Shown here: positions 12,721-20,269 of the stretch, in pieces
How the letters are laid out: every line of letters begins with the position of its first letter
Numbering within the stretch: the first letter of the stretch is position 1
Origin: an uncultured Chlorobiaceae bacterium
Lineage (GTDB): Bacteria; Bacteroidota; Chlorobiia; Chlorobiales; Chlorobiaceae
Reading direction: 5' to 3'
NCBI GenBank assembly: GCA_903859055.1
Contig: CAIOLC010000167.1
Span: forward strand, 1 to 37,742
Length of the DNA: 37,742 nucleotides
The notes under the pieces: generated by a model
The model's input: the letters and a program-made list of their open reading frames with translations, nothing else
The model's database searches: none
What the model was told of the DNA's origin: nothing
Position numbers and translations under genes: made by a program

Positions 12721-13470
12721 ATGATGAACACCATAAAGAGGATCTTTACTCTCTGGGTTGCCCTGCTTGCCATGACTGCATCTGCACGAGCTGGCGAACT
12801 GAATCTCTCCGTCGCAGCCAGCCTTAAAGAGGTCATCAACGAACTGAGCGTAAGTTACACCGCAAAACATCCTGGCACAGTTATTCTGAAAAACTTTGGC
12901 GCATCAGGCACACTTGCCGGACAAATTGAAAATGGGGCGCCAGCCGACCTTTTTATTGCTGCAAACAGTGAATGGATGGATTACCTGAACAACAAAAAGC
13001 TTGTTGATGGCAGCAGCATCAAGAGCTTTGCCTGGAACTCGCTTGTTTTTGTTGGAACCACCAGTAAAAAAGTGGCCTCTGTCAAAGATCTGCCAATTCT
13101 TGAAAAAATTGCCATTGGAAGTCCGAAGAGCGTTCCCGCCGGGGAGTACGCCATGGCGGCCATGACAAAATCAGGAGTTGTGACCAAGCTTGCCGAGAAG
13201 TTTGTGATGGCCAAAGATGTCCGTGAGTGCCTGATGTACGCCGAACTCGGTGAGGTCGATGGTGCATTTGTCTATAAGACTGATGCGTTGCTGGCAAAAA
13301 AATCAAAATTGCTTTTTGCTGTGCCTCAGGAACTTTATCCAAGAGTGGTTTATCCGATGGTGCTGACCATCAAAGCTGCACAAAACCCTGAAGCAAAAGC
13401 ATTCCTTGCTTATCTTCAGGGTAAAGAGGCAAAATGTGTGCTCACCAAGTTTGGCTTTATCCTGAAATAA
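12721..13470 (+). CDS. modA: Molybdate ABC transporter, periplasmic binding protein ModA
   Basis: This 249-residue protein has a Sec signal peptide at residues 1-24 (hydrophobic core LWVALLAMTA, cleavage likely after ARA). The mature protein has ModA hallmarks: LNLSVAASLKEVINEL at the start, NFGASGTLAGQIENGAPADLFIAA, SPKSVPAGEYA and a late GEVDGAFVYKTDA. Serines and backbone amides in these loops hold molybdate or tungstate. It delivers the oxyanion to ModB. Tandem ATG codons begin the gene at 12721 and 12724. The leader is long (about 135 bases) and contains two alternative pairings. Length is normal. Confidence 0.92.
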   Translation: MMNTIKRIFTLWVALLAMTASARAGELNLSVAASLKEVINELSVSYTAKHPGTVILKNFGASGTLAGQIENGAPADLFIAANSEWMDYLNNKKLVDGSSIKSFAWNSLVFVGTTSKKVASVKDLPILEKIAIGSPKSVPAGEYAMAAMTKSGVVTKLAEKFVMAKDVRECLMYAELGEVDGAFVYKTDALLAKKSKLLFAVPQELYPRVVYPMVLTIKAAQNPEAKAFLAYLQGKEAKCVLTKFGFILK

Positions 13471-13548
13471 TTCTTCTTTAATCTTTCAGGCTTGCATTTC
13501 CCAACGATTGCGGAGAAGTTTGTCAAGCCTCTTCTTAAGCAGGATACC

Positions 13549-13574
13549 GTGCAGCTTACTGCGGGAAGCTGCAC
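13549..13574 (+). other. Perfect hairpin between modA and modB
   Basis: GTGCAGCTT (13549-13557) and AAGCTGCAC (13566-13574) form a 9-base-pair stem with an 8-base loop. There is no U-tract after it, so it is not a classical terminator. It lies in an unusually long 144-base gap between binding protein and permease genes and could protect the modA end of a processed message or reduce downstream expression. Confidence 0.5.
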
Positions 13575-13614
13575 TTATGAAAGAGAGAACACACAATGAA
13601 GGTTTTTTGACAAT

Positions 13615-14301
13615 ATGCTGCTGACACCGGAAGATATCACTGCTATATGGCTCTCGTTGAAAGTTGCACTGACGGCAACGCTTCTCTCTTTGCCTTTCGG
13701 TTTTGCTACTGCCTGGTTGCTGGTTTTCAAAACATTGAGGGGAAAAGTGGTTCTGGAAGTTCTTGTCAACCTCCCCCTCACACTGCCACCGGTGGTGATC
13801 GGCTATTTTTTGTTGCTGCTGCTCGGTAAAAACGGATGGTTGGGCAAGGCGCTCGCTGAAACTGGTATTCAACTGATATTCACCTGGAAAGCTGCCGTTA
13901 TCGCCTCGGCAGTTGTCGGTTTTCCTCTGCTGGTACGATCGATTCGTCTTGGCATGGAGTCGATAGACAAGCAGCTTATCGCGGCTTCACGAACCCTTGG
14001 AGCCTCCTGGTATGACAGCCTCTTTACCATTATTCTGCCTCTTTCGCTGCGCGGTATTGTCGCTGGTTCATCGCTGATGTTTGCCAGAAGCCTCGGGGAG
14101 TTCGGAGCCACCATCATTGTTGCCGGAAATATGCCAGGAAGAACACAAACCATCCCTCTCGCAATTTACGATTACACAAGCTCACCCTCAAGTACGGCAA
14201 TGGCCCTTTCGCTCTGCATGGTCTCTGTTGTCATCTCGGTTGCGGTGCTTCTTCTTCATGAAATGCTCGGAAGAAAGCTTGACAGGAGCAGTGCATCATG
14301 A
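13615..14301 (+). CDS. modB: Molybdate ABC transporter permease ModB
   Basis: This 228-residue inner-membrane protein has about five transmembrane segments and the BPD permease signature. The EAA loop reads AASRTLGASWYDSLFTIILPLSLRGIVAGSSL, which contacts the ModC ATPase, and GEFGATIIVAGNMPGRTQTIPLAIY is a well-conserved ModB stretch. ATG 13615 fits the family start. The end overlaps modC by 4 bases (ATGA), implying coupled translation. Confidence 0.92.
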   Translation: MLLTPEDITAIWLSLKVALTATLLSLPFGFATAWLLVFKTLRGKVVLEVLVNLPLTLPPVVIGYFLLLLLGKNGWLGKALAETGIQLIFTWKAAVIASAVVGFPLLVRSIRLGMESIDKQLIAASRTLGASWYDSLFTIILPLSLRGIVAGSSLMFARSLGEFGATIIVAGNMPGRTQTIPLAIYDYTSSPSSTAMALSLCMVSVVISVAVLLLHEMLGRKLDRSSAS

Positions 14302-15356
14302 GGCTTCAACTCAATTTAAAAAAACAATTTGGGTCTTTTTTCCTGAAGATGGATGCTGACATTTCAGGTGAACGCATCGGCATTTTTGGCGACTCCGGCA
14401 GTGGCAAATCATCCATTGTCAACCTTGTAGCTGGACTTTTACAACCGGACAAAGGTGAAATTTTTCTGGATGGAGAGGCTCTTTTCAGCAGCAGAGATCA
14501 TCTCAATATCTCTCCTGAAAAAAGGCGGATTGCCATCGTGCTTCAGCAGGCAATGCTTTTCCCCCATTTGAGCGTTAAAAACAATCTTCTTTATGGCTAC
14601 AGGCGATGTGCCGAGCAACACCGAAAAATCAAACCTGACGCATTGATTGATCTGCTCAAGCTTGAACCACTTCTGCATCGTGGAGTAAATTATCTTTCCG
14701 GAGGAGAAAAACAGCGGGTTGCTCTCGGCAGGGCTGTTCTGGCAAATCCTCGCCTTCTTTTGATGGACGAACCACTTTCGGCCCTGGATGACAAACTCCG
14801 TTACCAGATTATCCCCTACCTGAGAAGCGTCAGCGAAGAGTTCAGGATTCCCTATCTCTTTATATCGCATTCTGTGAACGAGATGCAGTTAATGACAGAA
14901 CAAATTCTTGTCGTGAATGGTGGTGCACTGATCGAAGTGACGACTCCCGAACGACTTGCACGAAACAGAATGGCACAGAGTCAGGGCGGTTATCTCAATC
15001 TTCTGCATCTTGCCGATCCGGTCAATCAGCATGGTTTATTTGCCTGTCGATGGGGAAAGAATACCCTGCTTGTTTCAACCGGAGCGAACTGCTCTGAAAA
15101 ATCGCTGTTTGAACTCTCGTCACGCGAAATTATCCTCTTCAAAAAGCATCCTGAGGCAATCAGCGCCCGTAACCTGCTGGAGTGTACCGTCGAAGAGATG
15201 TTCAATTCCGGGGGAAGAATCGGTATCGTCCTCTCTGCTGATGGCGAAAAGCTTATTGCAGAAATTGTGCAATCGGCGGCTGATGAATTGAATATTACGC
15301 CAGGCTCTCCCCTTTTTGCCGCAATCAAGGCTTCGTCGTTCAGACGGCTTGGCTGA
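14298..15356 (+). CDS. modC: Molybdate ABC transporter ATP-binding protein ModC
   Basis: This 352-residue cytosolic ATPase has Walker A GDSGSGKSS near residue 31, the Q-loop in VLQQAMLFPHLSV, the ABC signature YLSGGEKQRVALGRA, Walker B LLLMDEPLSALD and the switch histidine in FISHSVNEM. The last 70 or so residues (SARNLLECTVEEMFNSGGRIGIVLSADGEK) form a Mop/TOBE-like domain that binds molybdate in other ModC proteins and can inhibit transport. It powers uptake with ModAB. Confidence 0.92.
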   Translation: MRLQLNLKKQFGSFFLKMDADISGERIGIFGDSGSGKSSIVNLVAGLLQPDKGEIFLDGEALFSSRDHLNISPEKRRIAIVLQQAMLFPHLSVKNNLLYGYRRCAEQHRKIKPDALIDLLKLEPLLHRGVNYLSGGEKQRVALGRAVLANPRLLLMDEPLSALDDKLRYQIIPYLRSVSEEFRIPYLFISHSVNEMQLMTEQILVVNGGALIEVTTPERLARNRMAQSQGGYLNLLHLADPVNQHGLFACRWGKNTLLVSTGANCSEKSLFELSSREIILFKKHPEAISARNLLECTVEEMFNSGGRIGIVLSADGEKLIAEIVQSAADELNITPGSPLFAAIKASSFRRLG

Positions 15357-15460
15357 ATGGTTGATTTCGACACTGTATTAACGCGGCGTTTGAATCACGC
15401 AGAAAACATTTATCTTCCAAGCAGAGAGTTTTTATATATATCCAAAGCTGAACCAACGGT

Positions 15461-16270
15461 ATGACAGGCAAAAAAGAGGCAATCGGCCTTGAAGGCTCTC
15501 TCTGGTTTCAGAAGGCGGAGAACAGGTTTCTCGGTGGCGACAGGATTGCCCTGCTGGAGAGCATTGATGCACTTGGCTCCATCAGCAGCGCTGCAAAAGC
15601 CGTCGGCATCAGCTACAAAACAGCATGGCATCTGGTCAACATGATGAATAACCTCTCCGAAAAGCCTCTGGTTGAAAGGATGACCGGGGGAAAAGGTGGC
15701 GGTGGAACCACGCTGACCAGTGAGGGCAAAAATATTATCGAACAGTTCCGGGTTGTTCAGGAGGAGCACCGGAAATTTCTCTACAATCTTGAAGAGCGTC
15801 TCGGAGAGAGTACTAATCTTTATCAATTTCTTAAAAGGATATCAATGAAAATCAGTGCACGTAATGTTTTTTCAGGTACGGTGGAAAAGATCACCATTGG
15901 CTCGGTGAACGCCGAGGTGATCCTGCGACTTAAAGGAGAGAGCAGCATTGCAGCAACCATCACCAACGGAGCCGTTACCAACCTCGGCCTGAAAGAGGGG
16001 ATGAATGCTTATGCCATCATCAAATCAAGCTCTATCATTATTGCCCAGGAGCTGCACGATGCTAAACTGAGTGCCCGCAACGTTCTGCCCGGCACGATCA
16101 GCAAGCTTATCGAAGGCCCCGTCAGCACAGAGGTTGATGTTGCCATTGGAGATGGTAATGTCATCTCTGCCATCATTACGCATGGTAGTTCAGAAAAGCT
16201 TTCGCTGAAAGAGGGCGATACGGCCTGTGCGCTCTTCAAGGCATCAAGTGTTATCATCGGGGTGAACTGA
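15461..16270 (+). CDS. modE: ModE-type molybdate-responsive transcription regulator with two Mop domains
   Basis: Residues about 15-115 form the ModE winged helix-turn-helix: RIALLESIDALGSISSAAKAVGISYKTAWHLVN, then ERMTGGKGGGGTTLTSEG. Two tandem Mop repeats follow at about 130-196 and 202-269, each starting SARNV.(S/P)GT and ending in a K(A)SS(S/V)(I/V)I strand. These bind molybdate and drive dimer binding to DNA. At 269 residues it is the usual full length. It lies 104 bases after modC and probably controls the operon through the palindrome at 12580-12605, by repression when molybdate is plentiful. Confidence 0.9.
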   Translation: MTGKKEAIGLEGSLWFQKAENRFLGGDRIALLESIDALGSISSAAKAVGISYKTAWHLVNMMNNLSEKPLVERMTGGKGGGGTTLTSEGKNIIEQFRVVQEEHRKFLYNLEERLGESTNLYQFLKRISMKISARNVFSGTVEKITIGSVNAEVILRLKGESSIAATITNGAVTNLGLKEGMNAYAIIKSSSIIIAQELHDAKLSARNVLPGTISKLIEGPVSTEVDVAIGDGNVISAIITHGSSEKLSLKEGDTACALFKASSVIIGVN

Positions 16271-16288: not shown

Positions 16289-16868
16289 TTACCACCTGCG
16301 TAAAAGAGTCTGCTTCATGGCAGCATTGTCGAGCTGAACCGCGTTACGTTTGCTGCGGGTAGCACGGACAATGCTGGCAACATCCTCAGGAAAGAGCAGG
16401 ATATCGAACGGATTATAAACACTGTCACCCAAAAAGTTATAGCCATTGTACACCCTTTTACCTGCTCCATATCCACCCCTTCAAGATATGAGGCAAAAGA
16501 TACCGGTCGTTCTCCTTGATCTTCGTGTAAAAGTTCCGCATTCCATTCCGAAGGAGCAGGGCCTCGGGGATATTCTCAATATTATCCAGAATCGGCTTGT
16601 CATACTCATCAATCAGGATGACCACCTTCTGGTGATACTTTTGAGAGGCCTTTTTGATGAGTTCTGCGAAACACTGGTTGGGATCCTCTTTCTCCACGCA
16701 AGTAATATCAAGCCGCACCTGATTGTCATTCATGATATAGAATAGATTTTTGCGAAGAGTTTCCCGACTCTCAATCCCGCCACCAAAACTAATCTGGATG
16801 ACCGGATATTTAACCCGAAGTTCCATTGCTCCTCAATCAGCAGCCCCCGGAACAGCTCCCGATTTCCC
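16289..16868 (-). pseudogene. AAA-ATPase-like gene (PF09820/DUF1703 type), multiply broken
   Basis: Pieces of one protein can be read in order on the minus strand but in different frames. FEGNRELFRGLLIEEQWNF begins at 16868. A frameshift near 16817 leads into RVKYPVIQISFG and an ATPase Walker B-like VVILIDEYDKPI. An apparent deletion near 16490 joins KENDRYL to FASYLEGVDMEQV. A one-base loss near 16455 restores YNGYNFLGDSVYNPFDILLF, followed by an unrecognised tail that stops at 16289. The Walker A part that should precede FEGNRELF is absent and is replaced by the transposase fragment. The family is common as accessory, apparently mobile, ATPase-nuclease genes of unknown role. It cannot be functional as read. 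Confidence 0.75.
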
Positions 16869-17147
16869 TCAAACCTTTACGGCGGCTCCACTGTACTGCC
16901 TGTCAACACCAACAGAGTCGTGGCCTTTTTTGATAAATCCACTTTCATCAAAAATCAAGGCACCATCAGGATGACCGAGATCATCATTGACGAGACTATG
17001 ATATTTAGCAATCATTTTTTCAGTTTCCCAAGTGGTATCACTGACAAAACGCTGCATGGCTCTGACATTCCCGTCTTGAATGGCTAACGCTATTTTCTCA
17101 ATAGACTTACGCTCCAATGGACAGAACTGGCCAACCATGTACTTGAG
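16869..17147 (-). pseudogene. IS701-family transposase fragment
   Basis: Frame on the minus strand from a TGA near 17150 to a stop reached just inside the AAA-ATPase remnant. The translated segment (MVGQFCPLERKSIEKIALAI, VSDTTWETEKMIAKYHSLVNDDLG, GALIFDESGFIKKGHDSVGVDRQY) matches the N-terminal third of IS701-type DDE transposases, including the first catalytic aspartate in IFDESGF. The rest of the transposase is missing, and neither inverted repeats nor target duplications were found. The break coincides with the start of ATPase homology, so it marks an old insertion followed by deletion. Confidence 0.78.
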
Positions 17148-18127: not shown

Positions 18128-19006
18128 CTACGTCGCAAGTGCCTTACACTGCGTGAAGAAATCGCGCAGGCGGTGGGTGCCATAAAGCGGGGCGACAAAA
18201 TCTACCCGGCTGAGCGTGGTGGCAAAGAGCGCAACATCGTGCACATCGCGATTGAAGAGGCCAACTGCCGCAACCAGGGTGTCAGCCGCCCAGAGTGGCA
18301 AGGGGAAAACAACCGGCTTCGTCTGGGCAATTTCAATCGCCAGATCAACCATTTCGAGGTAGGTGAAGACCTCAGGGCCACCAACCTCAACCTCTTTTGC
18401 CGCTCCATCAACGGCATCAACGCACACCCTGGCAAGGTCAGCGCCATGAACGGGATTTGAGCGCTGATAACCATCTCCAACCATCAGCATGAATCCCTTG
18501 CGAGCCCTGGCAACAAACTGCCCTATCTCCGAATAATAGCCTGTCGGACGAATAATGGCCGACTCAATCTTTGCCGCTTTCAGCTCTCTGACAAATTTCT
18601 CATGCGCCTGGACATTCGGGATATTCATCATCCGGTGAGCGTCGAAGACCGAGACGTAAACAAATTTCTTGACCTTTGCCTTCAGTGCCACCTCAAGGAG
18701 ATTCATGTTTGCCTGATAATCCACCTCAAAAATAGTATGGACAAAATCAGGCTTGATCATACCGAGCGATGAAAAAACAACATCGATACCATCACATGCC
18801 GCAGCTATGGTTTCAGAGATGGTTGCATCACCAACCACAACCTCATCAACCAGGTTTTCAAGAGAAGGCGCAAAGTAGGGGCCGGGTTGCTTGACCTTGT
18901 CGGGGTTACGCACCAGGGCGCGGACCCAATAGCCGCGATTTTTGAACTCCTGCACGGCATAGCGACCGAGATAACCGGTTGAACCGGCCACAAGTACTCT
19001 CTTCAT
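18128..19006 (-). CDS. NAD(P)-binding atypical SDR / NmrA-like protein
   Basis: This 292-residue protein begins with the Rossmann motif RVLVAGSTGYLGRYAV, followed by ALVRNPDKV, and has VVVGDATISETI and VVFSSLGMIKP in the expected order. There is no classical YxxxK pair at the usual position (the region reads YVSVFDAH), so it belongs to the atypical or extended SDR group related to NDUFA9, isoflavone reductase and the BciA-type 8-vinyl reductases. In a phototroph a pigment role is possible but unproven. No strong ribosome-binding site is seen at ATG 19006. Confidence 0.8.
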   Translation of the reverse strand: MKRVLVAGSTGYLGRYAVQEFKNRGYWVRALVRNPDKVKQPGPYFAPSLENLVDEVVVGDATISETIAAACDGIDVVFSSLGMIKPDFVHTIFEVDYQANMNLLEVALKAKVKKFVYVSVFDAHRMMNIPNVQAHEKFVRELKAAKIESAIIRPTGYYSEIGQFVARARKGFMLMVGDGYQRSNPVHGADLARVCVDAVDGAAKEVEVGGPEVFTYLEMVDLAIEIAQTKPVVFPLPLWAADTLVAAVGLFNRDVHDVALFATTLSRVDFVAPLYGTHRLRDFFTQCKALAT

Positions 19007-19161: not shown

Positions 19162-20007
19162 TCAGCCGTGTTGTGACTGACGAATAATTCGGGGTAGAGC
19201 CATGAGTATCCTGAAAAACATCGTTGCAAGCGGTTCATACCTCAAGCGACTGTTCGTCCCCGTGACTGCACGTATTTTTGGTACAAGCGCAGCCGCAACG
19301 ATTTCAGGCTGTTCTGCGACACCGGTTAAAAAGCGTCGCGCCCCGGCTGTTGCATCCCGAAGCAGGAGCTCGGTCAGCACAAGGCCCGGGCTCAGCTCAT
19401 GAACGCCAATGCTCTTTATTCCGGCAGCCTTCAACTCCCGCGAAAGAAAATGGGTCACCTCCGCCACTCCCCTTTTCGAGGCCTTGTGCGGCACGGCTGA
19501 ACGGGAAAAAGATGCTCCAACCATCGAAAAACCCATGTTGAAAATATGGTAGCATGGCTTCCCTGAGGATGGCTGCAGCACCATCACCTTCACCGCTTCG
19601 GCGCATAATAAGAGAGAGCCAGCAAGATTTGTGGTGCATGTCTCAATAATATCGGCAGCATCAAGCTCCCATAACGGTCGCTTCAACATGCCGGCAGTAC
19701 CCGCGTTATTAATCCAGCGATCCACTCTTCCCAGCCTGGCCACAGCAAAATCCGCCAGTAATCTTCCGGCAGTTGGTTCGCCCACATCGCAGACAATGCC
19801 AGAAACCTCCCCTTCCGGCACCGCACTCCGAAGAGAGAGTAACGCTGCATCCAACCCCTCGGGATTTCTGCCACAGATAACCACACGATCACCTGCAGAA
19901 AGAAACTCCAATGCAAGCGCATACCCCAATCCTTTGCTGCCTCCGGTGATAACTACGCCGAGGGAGTGTTCTCCATTCATGTTTTTCACAAGCTTCATTG
20001 GGGCCAC
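19162..20007 (-). CDS. Short-chain dehydrogenase resembling chlorophyll(ide) b reductases NYC1/NOL
   Basis: Classical SDR of 281 residues from a GTG at 20007. It has the cofactor motif VITGGSKGLGYALALEFL, GDRVVICGRN, the CDV acid, INNAG and the catalytic set ending in a YxxxK-like position that reads HKASK (histidine in place of tyrosine). The arrangement GDRV..CGRN, RWINNAGT, TNLAGSLLL, HIFNM, GVHELSPGLVLTELLL and ALVPKIRAV is strikingly like plant and algal NYC1/NOL, which reduce the 7-formyl of chlorophyll b. GTG is chosen over ATG 19998 because AAGGAGG lies 8 bases upstream of it. The upstream frame stops inside that Shine-Dalgarno, so translation is coupled. Substrate is inference only. 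Confidence 0.8.
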   Translation of the reverse strand: MAPMKLVKNMNGEHSLGVVITGGSKGLGYALALEFLSAGDRVVICGRNPEGLDAALLSLRSAVPEGEVSGIVCDVGEPTAGRLLADFAVARLGRVDRWINNAGTAGMLKRPLWELDAADIIETCTTNLAGSLLLCAEAVKVMVLQPSSGKPCYHIFNMGFSMVGASFSRSAVPHKASKRGVAEVTHFLSRELKAAGIKSIGVHELSPGLVLTELLLRDATAGARRFLTGVAEQPEIVAAALVPKIRAVTGTNSRLRYEPLATMFFRILMALPRIIRQSQHG

Positions 20008-20020
20008 GAGAGTTCCCTCC

Positions 20021-20269
20021 TTAATCCACAGAGATATAATCCTTCTCTTTGGTCGCATCCTCAATGACCTGGAGCCCAAAAAACAACTCCGCATTATCGA
20101 TAGTTTTCGGCCCAACCACTTTATCCTTGAAGCTATCTCTTATTTTTATCATCAACTCAGGATGAACCGTTACGGATACGGGATTTTTGATGGTACGGAA
20201 TCCATAAAAAATCGCGGCGATAATCTCTTCCCGAAAAAAATCGCTGCCAACCTCATACTGCTTTTCCAT
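20021..20269 (-). CDS. Small hypothetical protein (82 aa) upstream of the NYC1-like SDR
   Basis: An 82-residue acidic-basic mixed protein without signal peptide, membrane segment or cysteine motif. ATG 20269 is preceded by AGGGAGAAAA, a usable ribosome site, and the stop codon overlaps the Shine-Dalgarno of the SDR gene. That arrangement supports a real, co-translated gene. Family not recognised; the middle segment (GFRTIKNPVSVTVHPELMIKI) looks like a small folded alpha/beta protein. No function is proposed. Confidence 0.6.
   Translation of the reverse strand: MEKQYEVGSDFFREEIIAAIFYGFRTIKNPVSVTVHPELMIKIRDSFKDKVVGPKTIDNAELFFGLQVIEDATKEKDYISVD

Follow-up and report, generated by a model that had tools for sequence, protein, structure and literature searches.

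In the available text of PMC3541173 and PMC8621299, the chlorophyll b reductases of the NYC1/NOL type are described in plants. For the green sulfur bacteria, the available part of PMC6166724 calls the enzyme for 1',2'-dihydrochlorobactene the last unidentified one in photosynthetic pigment synthesis. A full-text search of the open literature for chlorophyll b reductase together with green sulfur bacteria and NYC1, with a Chlorobi homolog, or with Asgard returned nothing, and the SDR described here is not mentioned in the available text of PMC13297055 and PMC10158934. Here, we analysed a NOL-like classical SDR encoded in a stretch of 37,742 nucleotides (the window) from an uncultured Chlorobiaceae bacterium. 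Our results place it beside plant NOL and archaeal proteins, with an active site that is changed throughout its clade.

The gene lies at 19162-20007 on the minus strand as a single open frame of 281 amino acids with a GTG start at 20007. ATG starts at 19998 or 19980 are possible alternatives, and a larger ORF ending at 20115 contains the frame; the plus strand holds no open frame at 19162-20007. Numbering takes the Asn that follows the second Met (VAPMKLVKNMNGEH...) as residue 1; its codon begins at 19977. Pfam adh_short matches the protein (E 9e-29), and NCBIfam returned just distant SDR models far under their cut-offs. The motifs HIFNM, SPGLVLTELLL, ALVPKIRAV, and HKASK, listed in the first-pass annotation, were all found in the translation. 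Since 19 of 24 same-genus relatives carry an ortholog with 55-92% identity, chance is excluded as an explanation of the gene.

The protein shares the HIFN, WINNAG, SPGxVxTxLL, and VPxIR motifs with plant NYC1/NOL, for which our reference was an Arabidopsis NOL sequence written out without a database record. Compared with this reference NOL, it showed 42% identity over 239 amino acids (164 bits), against 59 bits for the top solved SDR structure, bearing out the proposed likeness to plant chlorophyll b reductase. No chlorophyll b reductase appeared among the solved-structure matches listed. The reference NOL itself looks sound, because archaeal proteins fetched afterwards match it well: the first, from a Heimdallarchaeota MAG, gave 43% identity and 206 bits, and another reached up to 49% identity.

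Phylogenetic analysis placed the reference NOL, Heimdallarchaeota-type proteins, and the window clade in one group. Its support was 100/96 in a tree of 77 rows, 99/94 in a corrected tree of 64 rows, and 100/97 in a tree of 69 rows in which the L034 row is a wrong ORF. All trees use NOL rather than NYC1 as the plant reference and hold 12 of the 23 rows of group C, one of two other NOL-like groups of green sulfur bacteria (groups B and C). The 64-row and later trees omit the generic rows L040, L007, L096, L084, and L106, which are long, partial, or unintended ORFs, and the archaeal locus L276 has no row in the 77-row tree. Forcing NOL together with the other two green sulfur bacterial groups was rejected in the 64-row tree (AU test, p 1.5e-5). 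When the reference NOL was removed, the archaeal protein still grouped with the window clade (99/92). The order of the NOL and archaeal branches inside the clade had no resolution in the 77-row tree. The phylogenetic check suggested at first pass thus put the protein with NOL and away from generic SDRs, and an assignment as a generic SDR is ruled out by the grouping in the three trees. These comparisons of sequences support a placement near NYC1/NOL.

Among 227 genomes from the phylum to which a Heimdallarchaeota MAG belongs, 26 match the NOL-type profile at E 1e-45. The archaeal rows added to the tree (L138 and the L269-L280 set) match over their full length and fall inside the NOL clade, the same supported clade as the window protein. 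These are the closest bacterial or archaeal relatives found, and Heimdallarchaeota-type archaea are not known to be phototrophic, so that belonging to the clade need not mean a chlorin substrate. Of 400 genomes in the phylum of a Chloroflexi record, 2 match, and both fall among other NOL-like rows outside the NOL clade. Among 386 cyanobacterial genomes, none matched at E 1e-45 when no more than 6 candidates were scored in each, an empty result that carries no weight. In a genome of Microbulbifer elongatus (L139, L034), two genes for NOL-like SDRs are separated by about 27 kb.

The window protein has the classical SDR features, namely the Rossmann fold, TGxxxGxG, and NNAG. However, its Asn-Ser-Tyr-Lys tetrad is incomplete. 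The active-site stretch SMVGASFSRSAVPHKASK (19474-19527, minus strand) contains Ser151, His164 at the place where Tyr is expected, and Lys168; Asn117 is encoded at 19627-19629 on the same strand. With the invariant Lys168 as anchor, we aligned 49 distinct full-length orthologs. Every one of them has His where YxxxK has Tyr (HKASK in 36, HRASK in 8, HRVSK in 3, HKVSK and HRTSK in 1 each), confirming the substitution read at first pass as real and fixed across the clade. Asn117 and Lys168 are kept in every ortholog, and 47 orthologs also keep Ser151, the other 2 having Thr there. Both the catalytic Tyr of NYC1/NOL, in YG(A/S)TK, and the GxGS stretch are missing. In the NOL type, the Ser of GxGS precedes Tyr by 11 residues, whereas in the window protein Ser151 stands 13 residues ahead of His164, and the serine stretch GAGSDG of NOL corresponds to GFSMVGA. 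Two catalytic neighbourhoods hence differ from NOL, because Tyr is replaced by His and the Ser is shifted. With the change to His fixed in the clade, it is unsafe to move chlorophyll b reductase activity onto this SDR. The Heimdallarchaeota-type relatives keep Tyr in L138 and in 10 of 11 newly fetched rows (one not read), whereas the window clade has His. Group C (YGTTK) also keeps Tyr, in 21 of 21 distinct sequences among those listed, one of which is an Oscillatoria protein. A Tyr-to-His change on the stem branch leading to the green sulfur bacterial proteins would fit these alignments, because the archaeal relatives and group C retain Tyr.

Arg37, in the stretch VVICGRN, is invariant in the 49 orthologs, and an acidic residue is absent at the end of the second strand. 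An Arg without an acidic residue at this position is the usual NADP(H) pattern, and the SDR is probably NADP(H)-dependent. The structure model built from a 57-row alignment shows a classical SDR fold with pLDDT 92.7 and pTM 0.91; an earlier model had a mean pLDDT of 63.8. Foldseek/VIA-align ranked ketoreductases and related SDRs highest (Z as high as 29.4, 241 aligned residues, 2.5 Å rmsd), with NADPH-dependent ketoreductases among the top ones. A fold in common says nothing on function.

Among 98 genomes of the class, the SDR was found in 66, all among the 86 Chlorobiaceae and none among the 12 others. We take the family holding all 66 for Chlorobiaceae from its named loci, and presume that one of the 12 may be Chloroherpeton. 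A phylum-wide search at E 1e-45 recovered the same 66 of 394 genomes, in 2 of 170 genera and only in Chlorobiaceae, a phototrophic family. As it is missing from 20 of the 86 Chlorobiaceae, the SDR is dispensable; 11 of these 20 genomes are at least 90% complete, so its absence or loss is real in some. Certain absences may be assembly gaps, as in genome G083, where the NmrA-type gene (see below) begins at the contig end.

The first-pass annotation had related the gene to the C7-formyl group of bacteriochlorophyll (BChl) e. No chlorophyll b is known from the host. The C. limnaeum bciD primers given in the available text of Harada et al. 2013 (PMC3613366) both match a single genome exactly, identifying it as Chlorobaculum limnaeum, which has BChl e. 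A BciD search found 9 of the 98 genomes positive, 8 with a full-length protein and 1 (G094) with a piece of bciD, and none was found in the window's own genome. The SDR occurs in 62 of 77 bciD-less Chlorobiaceae and in 4 of the 9 genomes with bciD, the other 5 being without it; bciD is thus associated with absence of the SDR (Fisher p 0.029, shared ancestry ignored). The C. limnaeum genome carries the window-type SDR, and so do the presumed genomes of C. tepidum (BChl c) and C. parvum (BChl d). This co-occurrence pattern is the opposite of that expected for a BChl e enzyme. Of the earlier interpretation, the placement in the NYC1/NOL family stands on the trees; the C7-formyl role does not fit the bciD distribution, and we reject it. 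The job of the SDR probably differs from C7-formyl reduction, judging from the replaced Tyr and from a distribution that does not follow BChl e.

Groups B and C belong to the same wider family, with about 30-35% identity to the window protein, and form a separate clade from it. Group B (L207:4328-5104, minus strand; also L257, L258, L259, L261, L262, L263, and L268) includes a 258-residue SDR about 3 kb from bciD in the C. limnaeum genome, past an ORF of 513 amino acids. This ORF is taken for cruB according to the cluster account in the available part of PMC3613366; a family search with it gave no match. Group B relatives sharing 55% identity or more were found in 8 of the 98 genomes; 5 of these carry bciD, which makes 5 of the 9 bciD-positive genomes as opposed to 3 of the 77 others (p 0.00018, ancestry ignored). 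In 4 of the 5, the distance to bciD is about 8 kb or less, and the fifth has the two genes on separate contigs. In G062, G021, and the second G066 copy, the group B gene is at most about 330 bases from a bchF-like gene, and TIGR02020 scored above its cut-off in all three bchF-like proteins scanned (G041, G062, G021). Group B genes occupy the bciD-cruB-bchF region in brown green sulfur bacteria, or else adjoin a bchF-like gene with no bciD close by. Phe takes the place of their catalytic Tyr in 6 of 7 distinct sequences (one not read), and the Ser of GxGS is Ala in the 5 rows read. Four bciD genomes are without group B, which is therefore unneeded for BChl e. The group B SDR is a better candidate than the window gene for a C7- or C3-related pigment step.

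The next gene downstream, at 18128-19006 on the same (minus) strand, encodes an atypical SDR of the NmrA/NAD_binding_10 type. Of the 43 loci compared, 13 have the two genes side by side on one strand, and these are the 13 highest in identity to the window protein; in other genomes, a close homologue is located away from the SDR. Close homologues (E 1e-149 or better) are present in 43 of 66 SDR-bearing and 4 of 20 SDR-less genomes (p 0.0006, uncorrected), and an operon partnership in the window subclade is possible. At E 1e-8, the NmrA-type protein matches just three PDB entries, of which two are named as complex I subunits and the third as an epimerase/dehydratase, and the available part of PMC1847441 suggests a Tic62 link. 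The conserved neighbours of the SDR are NlpC/P60, DUF218, UPF0149, D-Ala-D-Ala dipeptidase, Bmp lipoprotein, and sugar epimerase-like proteins, together with a methyltransferase, dihydroorotase, ParA-like protein, Na/H exchanger, SbcC, and GlcD-like protein. No bch or pigment gene was recognised among them across the 43 loci compared, ruling out a pigment operon. Two neighbours of about 1220 amino acids, guessed from their length to be magnesium chelatase, proved to be SbcC and GlcD-like. Elsewhere in the window, a solute-binding protein and a TOBE-domain regulator (Pfam) surround an ABC transporter, named by reading, at 12721-16270 (plus strand), an arrangement resembling a locus for molybdate uptake. 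Two short ORFs on the minus strand (16458-16826 and 16869-17138), situated between the TOBE-domain gene and a patatin gene, resemble by eye pieces of an AAA-ATPase-type protein and of a transposase.

Our preferred reading, to which we give a little less than an even chance, is an NYC1/NOL-type SDR with an altered active site that uses NADP(H) for a redox step on a flat, hydrophobic carbonyl or alcohol substrate, with a chlorin position other than C7 or a quinone the likelier target. The protein would represent the green sulfur bacterial branch of the NYC1/NOL-type classical SDRs, with an active site of Asn117-Ser151-His164-Lys168. It would bind NADP(H) and pass hydride to or from the carbonyl or alcohol carbon of a substrate common in Chlorobiaceae, and His164, or a water that it holds, may serve as the acid/base. 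A chlorin carbonyl other than the C7-formyl, or a quinone, would be a likelier substrate than BChl e; C3-hydroxyethyl/acetyl or C13-keto groups are examples of chlorin targets, in turnover rather than main synthesis. A role in turnover or a side reaction is more probable than one in the main pathway because PMC6166724, as far as its available text goes, leaves that pathway without a gap. Family, phylogeny, fold model, fixed residues including the glycine motif, distribution, and the missing tie to bciD all favour this reading. Against it, the conserved neighbours include no recognised pigment gene, the Heimdallarchaeota-type kin are not known to be phototrophic, the main pigment pathway shows no gap to fill, the gene is dispensable, and the lost Tyr may mean lost redox activity. 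The bolder proposal that a His-for-Tyr SDR, of an ancestor shared with NOL and the Heimdallarchaeota-type proteins, acts on a non-C7 ring carbonyl of bacteriochlorophyll in an undescribed turnover route of Chlorobiaceae appears improbable.

An ordinary carbonyl reductase outside pigment metabolism, acting on a quinone, lipid, or sugar derivative and having just its ancestry in common with NOL, is the rival that survives best, though we regard it as rather unlikely. It would suit a clade common to Heimdallarchaeota-type genomes and a neighbourhood of NlpC/P60, Bmp lipoprotein, sugar epimerase-like, methyltransferase, dihydroorotase, ParA-like, and NmrA-type genes. However, the active site differs from that of an ordinary SDR, and the matches in the gene's own phylum sample are restricted to Chlorobiaceae, phototrophs by general knowledge. 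Less likely still is an inert pseudo-enzyme working as an NADPH-binding sensor, scaffold, or pigment carrier. The catalytic Tyr is gone in all 49 distinct orthologs, and the group B SDRs of the same bacteria are without it too; yet Asn, Lys, and Ser/Thr are retained in all 49, and the replacement is always His, suggesting a working role for this residue. A C7-formyl reductase of BChl e that reverses BciD is highly improbable, since its kinship with NOL and the presence of the gene in the genome matched by the C. limnaeum bciD primers are outweighed by the bciD distribution (own genome, 62 of 77, and 5 of 9), the Tyr replaced in 49 of 49, and a different NOL-like SDR in the bciD cluster.

Returning to the preferred reading, activity of the enzyme would mean that SDR catalysis is possible with His substituting for Tyr, and would provide green sulfur bacteria with a candidate pigment- or quinone-modifying step. 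The C7-formyl question shifts to the SDR of the bciD cluster. Among the bacterial and archaeal genomes searched, the tree suggests that the nearest kin of the reference plant NOL are in Chlorobiaceae and Heimdallarchaeota-type archaea, a kinship that bears on the origin of chlorophyll b reductase.
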